From IMG/VR virus record IMGVR_UViG_3300027847_000667, positions 1 to 46,095 of that record: a DNA stretch of 46,095 nucleotides; one strand, written 5' to 3'. The translations under genes were made by a program, and so were the position numbers. A model generated the notes under the pieces. The model did no database searches and was not told the origin of the DNA. It was given only the letters and a program-made list of their open reading frames with translations. Below are positions 4,060-10,935 of this stretch, one piece after another (position 1 is the first letter of the stretch; the number at the start of each line of letters is the position of its first letter). This stretch comes from a virus.

Positions 4060-4087
4060 AATCCCCTCTGATTCCTCAGAGGGGATT
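4060..4087 (-). terminator. Rho-independent terminator of the gp32 transcript
   Basis: A perfect 12-bp stem (4060-4071 with 4076-4087) and a TTCC loop lie between the convergent tape measure and gp32 genes. On the minus strand the stem is followed by a run of seven Ts, the classic intrinsic form, so it ends gp32 transcription. On the plus strand no T run follows, though the hairpin may still slow transcription arriving from the tail genes. Confidence 0.9.
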
Positions 4088-7165: not shown

Positions 7166-7290
7166 TTATTTTATCTTTCTAAAATGGTGCCGGAGGTAAG
7201 AAATACAAAATACTAGCTATAATCACCACACCTAATATAATTAATATAAATTTCTTCATTTATTTTATCTTTCTAAAATGGTGCCGGAGG
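7160..7290. repeat. 37-bp direct repeat spanning tRNA 3' end and gene start (copies 7160-7196 and 7254-7290)
   Basis: Two identical 37-bp copies lie 94 bp apart. Read on the minus strand, each contains the tRNA 3' terminus (CCTCCGGCACCA), an AT-rich spacer and an ATGAAG start. The copy at 7254-7290 is the real end of the tRNA-like gene plus the start of a 26-codon ORF. The copy at 7160-7196 is the end of that ORF plus the start of thyX. It looks like a tandem duplication of about 94 bp that has since diverged in the middle. Confidence 0.9.
7179..7259 (-). CDS. 26-residue hydrophobic membrane peptide
   Basis: The short ORF MKKFILIILGVVIIASILYF-LPPAPF is Lys-start, one hydrophobic helix, Pro-rich end. 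It fits between the tRNA-like gene and thyX and uses the same start context as thyX, because both ATGs sit in the 37-bp repeat. Its last residues (PPAP) are encoded by the duplicated tRNA 3' end, CCTCCGGCACCA. It has no recognisable family. It may be a genuine membrane micropeptide or a by-product of the duplication. Confidence 0.45.
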   Translation of the reverse strand: MKKFILIILGVVIIASILYFLPPAPF

Positions 7291-7360
7291 GAAGATTCAA
7301 ACTCCCGACCTATTGATTTTTATATCTAATCAATTGCTCTATCAATTGAGCTACTCCGGC
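7279..7360 (-). tRNA. tRNA-like gene with encoded CCA and expanded anticodon arm (anticodon undetermined)
   Basis: The acceptor stem GCCGGAG/CTCCGGC is perfect, followed by A and an encoded CCA. The D arm is GCTC-AATTGATA-GAGC. The T arm is GGGAG-TTTGAAT-CTTCC, with one G-U pair. The anticodon arm is 23 nt rather than 17: a 7-bp stem ATTGATT/AATCAAT around a 9-nt loop AGATATAAA, so a standard 7-nt loop and anticodon cannot be assigned. Total length is 79 nt before CCA. It could be a diverged or decaying tRNA, a tRNA with unusual decoding, or a tRNA-like RNA. It lies 16 bp after the coiled-coil gene and probably shares its transcript. Confidence 0.75.
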
Positions 7361-8580: not shown

Positions 8581-8624
8581 ATTATACTCGCCTTAGTGCG
8601 TTAGTATAAAATGAGGGTATTCTG

Positions 8625-8908
8625 TTGCTAGGAACCCCCAAAACCCCGAGCAATTATGCGGCTAGCGCATAATCCTCAATTGCAAAGTTATCGTTTGCGT
8701 TTACTTAATTTGATCATAAGGTGATCACTCCACAGTTCTCCACTTTCCTATACATTGTCAGTCGATCCTGTTTCGCCCCCATCAAAAGCGCACACCCAAC
8801 CCCAATTTTGGGGCAATCCCGAACTGCCGGGATGTGCGTTTGTGGTGGAGGCGCGGGGTACTGCCCCCCGGTCCTGGCCAACTTTCAGTCCGTTTCATCA
8901 AACTGTAC
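8625..8908 (-). ncRNA. ssrA: Circularly permuted (two-piece) tmRNA
   Basis: The acceptor piece comes first, from about 8908 to 8843: T stem CGGGG/CCCCG with loop GGCAGTA, then CGCCTCC and A-CCA. A 62-nt intervening segment (8842-8781) is closed by CGCACA/TGTGCG and holds two inner hairpins (CCCG/CGGG and CCCCAA/TTGGGG). The coding piece starts at 8780 with GGGGGCGAAACAGGATCGAC, the conserved tmRNA 5' end. GGGGGCG pairs with CGCCTCC of the first piece (one G-U) to form the acceptor stem, the hallmark of permuted tmRNA. CAAT/GTTG and AACTG/CAGTT pairings between the pieces fit helix P2. The tag ORF and a TTGCT/AGCAA helix (8653-8625) follow. It would rescue stalled ribosomes with SmpB, which is not in this window. 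Confidence 0.93.
8654..8698 (-). other. tmRNA proteolysis-tag reading frame
   Basis: GCA to TAA encodes ANDNFAIEDYALAA, 14 residues. The ANDNFA opening matches the Caulobacter-type tag (AANDNFAEEFAVAA), and the hydrophobic ALAA end is the ClpXP degron common to bacterial tags. The resume codon is taken as GCA after GTAAAC, by analogy to known tmRNAs. Confidence 0.93.
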
Positions 8909-8911
8909 TTA

Positions 8912-8942
8912 TATTTATACCACACTAAACATTTTTTGTCAA
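8912..8942 (-). promoter_or_regulatory. tmRNA promoter, combined sigma70-type and T4-late-type
   Basis: On the minus strand, TTGACA (8937-8942), 17 bp, TATAAA (8914-8919). The -10 is also a full T4-late box TATAAATA (8912-8919). The predicted start near 8908 coincides with the 5' end of the acceptor piece, which independently supports the tmRNA boundary. This is the only promoter in the window that fits both classes. Confidence 0.8.
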
Positions 8943-9057
8943 GGTGTTTGAACTGGTTTAGACTATTATCTTTTCCATTCATCAACTTCTTTATCATGGC
9001 CGGGACGATGGCCATCTTAGGAACGCCCTCCATTTCATAACTATATAAGATTTTAGA

Positions 9058-9777: not shown

Positions 9778-10491
9778 TTATTCAATTCCTATGCCAAGCT
9801 TGATTTTATTAATAAGATAACTGCGAACAAACCCGCTACGAACAATATCTCCAATGGTAAATTCTGTACAATTAAATTCTTCCATCTCTCCTAGAATTCG
9901 TAGAAAATCATGTAGTCCATTTTTCTCATTTTGTCTCACTAAATCTGACTGATCAAAATCTCCACAAAATACAATCTTTGAATCTTGTCCTACTCTGGTG
10001 ATAATTGTGTCAAGCTCATGGAAATTTAAATTCTGACACTCATCTACTATAATGATTGTATTATCAAATGTCAGCCCCCTTAGAAAAGAAGTTGATAAAA
10101 AGTATAATGTACCTTGACCCTTTAGTTTATCATATAGATTATTAAATTGTTGTTCATTCTGCATTTCAAACATGAATTGCACCATGTTTTGATATGGAAC
10201 TTGATACAATGCAGCCTTATCTTCCTCATCGCCGGGCAGAAATCCAATCTCTCTGGTAGGAATAAGTGACCGAACAAGAACTACTTTGTTATAAGGTTCC
10301 TTTAAATTTAATACATCTCTTAATGCAAGATAGAGTGATATGAAAGTTTTACCTGTACCAGCAGCACCAAATAAAAATTGGTTCTTACCCTCTTTCCAAG
10401 CGTCAAAAACTACCTTTTGATTATCAGTAATTGATTTGATCGTTACAAGATTGGTATGGTTAATCTCTTTGTTCTTTTTAACACTAGCCAT
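9778..10491 (-). CDS. phoH: PhoH-like P-loop ATPase
   Basis: 237 residues. The Walker A is GAAGTGKT (42-49) and the Walker B IIIVDECQ (146-153), with VRSLIPTREIGFLPGD between them and FCGDFDQSDL after, the usual PhoH/SF1-like pattern. PhoH-like genes are marker genes of marine phages. The biochemical role is unsettled, with RNA-related ATPase activity likely. It lacks extra domains. The gene lies about 130 nt downstream of a late-type promoter and a structured RNA (10524-10621), so regulation through its leader is plausible. Confidence 0.92.
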   Translation of the reverse strand: MASVKKNKEINHTNLVTIKSITDNQKVVFDAWKEGKNQFLFGAAGTGKTFISLYLALRDVLNLKEPYNKVVLVRSLIPTREIGFLPGDEEDKAALYQVPYQNMVQFMFEMQNEQQFNNLYDKLKGQGTLYFLSTSFLRGLTFDNTIIIVDECQNLNFHELDTIITRVGQDSKIVFCGDFDQSDLVRQNEKNGLHDFLRILGEMEEFNCTEFTIGDIVRSGFVRSYLINKIKLGIGIE

Positions 10492-10523
10492 TTTTAATCC
10501 TAATTAACAATAAAGGTGAGGGG

Positions 10524-10621
10524 GGAAGCGCTTCCCCCCTCTATGGTACATAGGCGGAGGGACTTCCCAGCTTACATCAACGCTGTGCGTCAGTGCTGAA
10601 GTTTGATTTCTCGCCCGTACC
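10524..10621 (-). ncRNA. Structured RNA in the phoH leader (unassigned)
   Basis: Read on the minus strand from 10621: GGTAC-GGGCG pairs with CGCCT-AT-GTACC (10545-10556) to close a domain. Inside, ACTTCAGC pairs with GCT-GG-GAAGT. At the tip, TGACGC-ACA-GCGTTG forms a 6-bp hairpin. Immediately after comes a perfect 24-nt GC-rich palindrome (GAGGGGGGAAGC and its complement, about 10518-10541). A TATAAATA box lies 3 bp upstream of the first helix. Nested helices of this kind argue for a real RNA element, a cis-regulatory leader or a small RNA. No T run follows the palindrome. It matches no family I can name. Confidence 0.6.
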
Positions 10622-10623
10622 AA

Positions 10624-10631
10624 TATTTATA
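10624..10631 (-). promoter_or_regulatory. T4-late-type promoter box TATAAATA (phoH)
   Basis: An exact TATAAATA on the minus strand, overlapping the stop of the upstream gene and placed so that transcription would begin at the first base pairs of the structured RNA. A late-type activation needs gp33, which is encoded in this window. Confidence 0.6.
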
Positions 10632-10935
10632 TCACCCTATGTTTTTTCAACACGTTTCTTGTCTTTATTTCTTTATGCGATTTTATTTTACTACCACCAT
10701 ACCTATCGGCTAAAGGAGAGCCAGGATGTGAGTTTGCTATCTGCTCCATACGTTCATTAAACCCGCCATCAGTTTTTGGGCCAACGCCCATAACATGATC
10801 GCCAACAAATGCAAACATTACTGGAACTTGACTAATATGAGGATTATCTTTAAGATAATCTTCTCTCTCATCTATATTCATAAATTCATCATAAGTAAAT
10901 TCTGTATTGTTATCTATAAATGTATAAGTCGGCAT
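10627..10935 (-). CDS. Conserved marine-phage protein, FmdB-like N-terminus
   Basis: 102 residues beginning MPTYTFIDNNTEFTYDEFM, a pattern seen in small proteins of many marine myophages and reminiscent of FmdB-type zinc ribbons. The Cys residues of a true zinc ribbon are missing. The middle GVGPKTDGGFNERMEQIA is followed by a basic C-terminus. It overlaps the next upstream ORF by one base. Function is unknown. Confidence 0.6.
   Translation of the reverse strand: MPTYTFIDNNTEFTYDEFMNIDEREDYLKDNPHISQVPVMFAFVGDHVMGVGPKTDGGFNERMEQIANSHPGSPLADRYGGSKIKSHKEIKTRNVLKKHRVI

Follow-up and report, generated by a model that had tools for sequence, protein, structure and literature searches.

Structured RNAs of T4-like phages occur in several genomic settings. 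The stable RNAs C and D of T4 are encoded in its tRNA cluster and not at phoH, which is widely used as a marker for marine viruses and encodes a product without a settled function. Permuted two-piece tmRNAs are known from pelagiphages and from the phage Melnitz. The manA and wcaG motifs were described from T4-like cyanophages in a study that contains no mention of phoH (Weinberg 2010; PMC2864571), and a glutamine (glnA) riboswitch accompanies ssrA in the phages Melnitz and Mosig (PMC9004378). PhoH proteins are NTPases whose function is unknown; the one of E. coli, YbeZ, interacts with the RNase YbeY (PMC5101352). Here we analyzed a 46-kb virus fragment (the window, 46,095 nucleotides in full) with T4-like genes, among them those for a single-strand binding protein, a late coactivator, ribonucleotide reductase, and phoH. 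An earlier note, made from the letters of the window, had proposed a candidate new structured RNA upstream of phoH, and we searched for relatives of this element and for signs that its base pairs are maintained.

A covarying RNA domain between phrog_385 and phoH

The phoH gene (positions 9778 to 10491; phrog_170, E 4.6e-89) is preceded by a 135-nt gap that ends at a phrog_385 gene (10627 to 10935), a "transcriptional regulator" by its phrog match and the syntenic neighbor of the RNA. The minus strand is used throughout. The gap contains a T4-type late promoter box (TATAAATA), an RNA domain of 77 nt, and a perfect GC palindrome of 24 nt. All elements of the earlier proposal, the closing, middle, and tip helices as well as the palindrome, are present on this strand. 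The domain (10545 to 10621) scores 100.4 bits with our model R1 and consists of three nested helices. The closing helix P1 pairs 10609 to 10621 (5' strand) with 10545 to 10558 (3' strand) and reads GGTACGGGCG.../...CCGCC-TAT-GTACC. In P2, ACTTCAGC (10595 to 10602) pairs with GCT-GG-GAAGT (10562 to 10571), which carries a 2-nt bulge, and P3 is the tip hairpin GACGC-ACA-GCGTT (10579 to 10591).

Folding of the single sequence was modestly unusual (z = -2.5, with 2 of 200 shuffles folding equally well), and P2 was missing from the minimum-energy fold of the window sequence alone. The comparative signal is decisive. When 60 versions of the RNA were aligned by MAFFT without structure and RNAalifold was then run on the alignment, the same three helices emerged that had been drawn from the window. 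Across these versions 99.7% of the cells were paired, and compensatory changes on both sides occurred in 12 of 25 base pairs, including 7 of 12 in P1 (99.6% paired) and 3 of 5 in P3. None of 500 shuffles reached any of five measures, counts that are not probabilities because the sequences are related, and sliding the partner strands reduced pairing to 31-40%. A stronger argument than these counts is the number of different pair types found per position.

P2 was nearly invariant within the 60 versions and paired in 100% of them, with compensatory changes in the versions from loci L019 and L049. More changes came from divergent versions found by R1 without being in its training (E 1e-11 to 1e-14), in which ACUUC/GAAGU is replaced by ACCAC/GUGGU, ACUAC/GUAGU, or AUUAC/GUAAU, and AGC/GCU by AGU/ACU. 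The wider set had 99.5% of cells paired and compensatory changes in 13 of 19 pairs. We counted 71 G-U cells and no A-C cells in the aligned versions, and hence the RNA strand is the minus strand; the plus strand, which folds well too, is ruled out by the same count. A search for pseudoknots by mutual information left top column pairs that were mostly non-complementary. The element is thus a structured RNA under selection on pairing, and the earlier observation was real and understated. Since matched mutations have preserved its base pairs across scores of viruses, the RNA very probably serves a function.

The late box at 10624 to 10631 shares bases with the stop codon of the phrog_385 gene. 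As such, TATAAATA is not enriched in the window (5 occurrences against 5.9 expected), and the evidence for a late box is its fixed position before the RNA. The most common distance in the family, exactly 5 nt from the end of the box to the first pair of P1, is seen in 51 of 108 versions; the window copy is a variant with 2 nt. Since late boxes of T4 precede the start site by about one turn of the helix (PMC2988020), the 5-nt spacing would make the 5' nucleotide part of, or adjacent to, the first P1 pair. The suggestion that transcription starts at the first base pair therefore agrees with the family and fits less well the very copy for which it was made. Measured against a T4-type late unit, with an 8-bp TATA box about one turn upstream, the box is present, with the 5-nt spacing in half of the family and 2 nt in the window.

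The palindrome (10518 to 10541; halves GAGGGGGGAAGC/GCTTCCCCCCTC) is a separate, terminator-like hairpin directly 3' of the RNA domain, starting 3 nt after P1, and ranks first among the terminator-like candidates of its region. Among 98 distinct downstream sequences, practically all have a GC-rich hairpin (mean -21.9 kcal/mol) that begins 0-4 nt beyond P1; inspection of the exceptions, in L005 and L076, suggests that longer or interrupted hairpins were misassigned in folding. Length and sequence of the hairpin vary widely while the RNA domain is conserved: the RNA has a pairwise identity of 0.82, hairpin plus spacer 0.39, and phoH 0.75, or 0.56 when only its third positions in unchanged residues are counted. 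The hairpin is followed by a moderately U-rich tail (ACCTTTATTG, 10508 to 10517), and across the family T makes up a fraction of 0.476 of the first 10 nt beyond the hairpin and 0.288 of the 15 nt that come next. As an intrinsic terminator, the element thus has a GC-rich hairpin and a T-enriched but imperfect tail; the U-tract (ACCUUUAUUG) is weak in many versions. Termination here may be weak because of this imperfect tract, whereas a hairpin between convergent genes at 4060 to 4087 is a canonical terminator whose minus strand carries U7.

Two more RNA genes of the window lie on the minus strand. A permuted two-piece alpha-type tmRNA at 8610 to 8946 (Rfam RF01849, 118.6 bits, and RF04321) has the ARAGORN tag ANDNFAIEDYALAA and contains a TATAAATA box at 8912 to 8919. 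A tRNA-like gene at 7282 to 7360 reaches 57 bits with the Rfam tRNA model but is missed by ARAGORN; by eye, the anticodon loop seems enlarged to about 11 nt, and the 3' end of the gene with the next 25-30 nt (CTCCGGCACCATTTTAGAAAGATAAAATAAATGAAG) recurs about 90 nt downstream, the two copies flanking a tiny ORF.

Distribution and linkage to phoH

Pattern scans of IMG/VR found the RNA on 61 and then on at least 119 contigs, and the database holds at least 87 distinct versions. Most loci of phoH relatives in this database carry the same RNA. The upstream sequence was long enough for scoring in 76 loci, of which 54 were positive by regular expression, R1 added at least one that the expression had missed (L018), and about 20 were without the RNA. 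phoH lies within 200 nt downstream in 100 of 106 distinct placed instances; three of the others are contig ends, and in three (L010, L104, and L110) another ORF lies between the RNA and phoH. That small ORF, at 2157 to 2499 in L010, has a signal-peptide-like start and is inserted between the RNA hairpin and phoH. The upstream gene is the same wherever the contig has room, with one exception among the 106.

In the lineages without the RNA, phoH directly follows the upstream gene, and a separate leader with a ribosome-binding site is absent as well. Six of these loci (L002 to L004 and L006 to L008) seem to have lost RNA, hairpin, and ribosome-binding site in a clean deletion that left the late box or a remnant of it only a few nucleotides before the phoH ATG, which suggests a nearly leaderless phoH mRNA. 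In loci lacking the RNA at phoH we found no copy elsewhere within the flanks searched, the contigs being fragments. Other phoH leaders (the L276/L318 and L308/L392 groups, L278, L279, L290, L380, L386, and L460) have unrelated cores and, in single folds, share the layout of a late box, 4-5 nt, a P1-closed domain, and an abutting GC hairpin. Possibly, one genomic slot upstream of phoH holds several RNA families.

The RNA was not found in the cyanophages sampled. Seven of eight have 0-6 nt upstream of phoH, which leaves no room for it, and P-SSM3 has 61 nt; Melnitz has no gap at this position. R1 detected no copy in HTVC008M, Melnitz-2, or Mosig, and a second model, R2, found none that was convincing in ten named phages including cyanophages (one match at E 0.14). 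A blastn search against 50,697 phage records, which is insensitive to divergent copies, gave no match. Two exact-pattern scans of 84,980 prokaryote species genomes, which could miss remote homologues, revealed no cellular homologue.

Possible modes of action

Strand, position, RNA-level structure, late-box spacing, and the recurrent hairpin are established here. We favor, with a probability of about 50%, the view that the RNA is a discrete small transcript of about 110 nt, made late from its own promoter, ended by its own terminator, and leaking into phoH. The phage-modified host RNA polymerase would start at the late box, with the 5' nucleotide in or next to the first P1 pair as the spacing and the T4 rule predict, and the transcript would fold into a P1-P2-P3 rod. 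Judging from their conservation, the internal loops, the 2-nt bulge, and the nearly fixed P2 may form a recognition surface. Partial termination at the adjoining GC hairpin would release a stable small RNA, and the remaining transcription would run on into phoH. The small RNA would most likely be trans-acting, with a host or phage protein as its binding partner late in infection; we prefer protein binding to an antisense function because most of the invariant bases are found in helices, the bulge, and short joints rather than along an extended open stretch. The preference for a discrete small RNA rests on the promoter with a predicted start at P1, the terminator-like hairpin, the absence of the RNA from several phoH lineages, and the intervening ORF in three loci. 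Against it stands the proximity of phoH in 100 of 106 instances, equally expected for a cis-acting leader, and so do the imperfect U-tract and the 2-nt instead of 5-nt box spacing in the window.

A cis-acting leader of the phoH mRNA that sets translation or stability of phoH late in infection is a serious rival and nearly as likely, because the phoH neighborhood is almost exclusive. The RNA domain might then bind a protein, perhaps PhoH or a host RNA-binding protein, or shield the 5' end, and the GC hairpin would be an insulator or partial attenuator. Beyond the position next to phoH, such a role is consistent with the absence of leader and ribosome-binding site in lineages without the RNA and with a weak U-tract that would permit read-through. 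It is harder to reconcile with the roughly 20 of 76 phoH loci that do without the RNA and with the foreign ORF in three loci. Moreover, the hairpin lies 0-4 nt from P1 without overlap, so that the usual aptamer/terminator switch is absent, and our folds showed no pairing with the phoH start region.

The properties of PhoH as an NTPase and the interaction of YbeZ with an RNase make an RNA partner for PhoH an attractive idea. The RNA could be a dedicated cofactor, guide, or substrate of the neighboring PhoH ATPase in a phage-encoded ribonucleoprotein whose targets late in infection would be host RNA or ribosomes, with the slot upstream of phoH holding several RNA lineages whose unrelated cores share late box, closed domain, and GC hairpin. 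This is a tentative proposal that we consider rather unlikely.

We regard as improbable a metabolite-sensing riboswitch of a new class that uses the terminator as its expression platform. The aptamer-like conservation, the terminator-like hairpin directly 3' of the domain, and the report of a glutamine riboswitch in Melnitz, a related phage (PMC9004378), would suit such a switch. P1 and the hairpin do not compete, which disfavors a terminator-type riboswitch: they share no bases and folded together in 52 of 53 sequences, where a switch would have them exclude each other. Furthermore, phoH is not a metabolic gene of a known ligand, and no Rfam riboswitch matched.

A small protein gene in place of an RNA is very unlikely: an NTG triplet occupies columns 1-3 before P1 in 75 of 87 distinct cores and the frames through the RNA are mostly open, but one-nucleotide indels spread the conserved 3' half over three frames (41, 29, and 17 of the 87) with the nucleotides still conserved, a distribution that contradicts the reading, compensatory P1 changes fall at all codon positions, and the NTG would lie upstream of the predicted start. 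A DNA-level element (a cruciform or a replication or recombination site) or chance palindromes would account for the perfect palindrome of the window, yet are contradicted by the 71 G-U and 0 A-C cells that select one RNA strand, by the covariation that no shuffle matched, and by a palindrome that varies freely while the RNA domain is kept.

Comparison with known RNAs

The families in Rfam 15 include objects of the same type, compact covarying RNAs of bacteria and phages. We searched three members of the new family against all 4227 models at gathering and permissive thresholds, and no family reached its gathering cut-off; the best weak match, SIB_RNA (RF00113), had 21.8 bits against a cut-off of 56 and was on the plus, that is the wrong, strand. 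No known RNA family was identified among these models, and among open-licence PMC papers we found no description of the RNA. The earlier note would have been refuted by a lack of covariation in homologues or by a match to a known family; neither outcome occurred. Its proposal of a new structured RNA is supported, and the best explanation is a new family of structured non-coding phage RNA that is absent from Rfam.

A covarying RNA beside phoH in many uncultured marine T4-like phages provides a concrete handle on the effects of late infection in marine bacteria and can be spotted quickly in metatranscriptomes that already exist. Few structured RNAs are known from marine phages of the T4 type, and this one would extend them by a phage-specific family. 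The manA and wcaG motifs are likewise structured RNAs upstream of genes in marine metagenomes and T4-like phages; their sequences and genes differ from those of the phoH RNA, which matched neither in Rfam. The glnA riboswitch of Melnitz and Mosig belongs to related marine T4-like phages and to the same neighborhood of tmRNA, late coactivator, and phoH, but it sits with ssrA and not upstream of phoH.

The nearest counterpart may be found in a cultured phage. In the Pelagibacter phage HTVC008M, a 108-nt gap at the same position holds a phoH leader with the helix GUUAAC-AGC/GCU-GA-GUUAAC, which has the AGC/GCU and the 2-nt bulge of P2 but neither a typical P1 nor a terminal GC hairpin. Leaders of this group (L144, 2893 to 3000, and L233 to L243) have the P2-like bulged helix and a conserved GUAGG-AUAUCAUAU segment. 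In ten aligned leaders the bulged helix is paired throughout (100%), and 6 of its 9 pairs show compensatory changes. As R1 and R2 gave no significant link (R2 E 0.64 for one locus), we call the HTVC008M leader a possible remote homologue only, by which the RNA would possibly also occur in a cultured phage.
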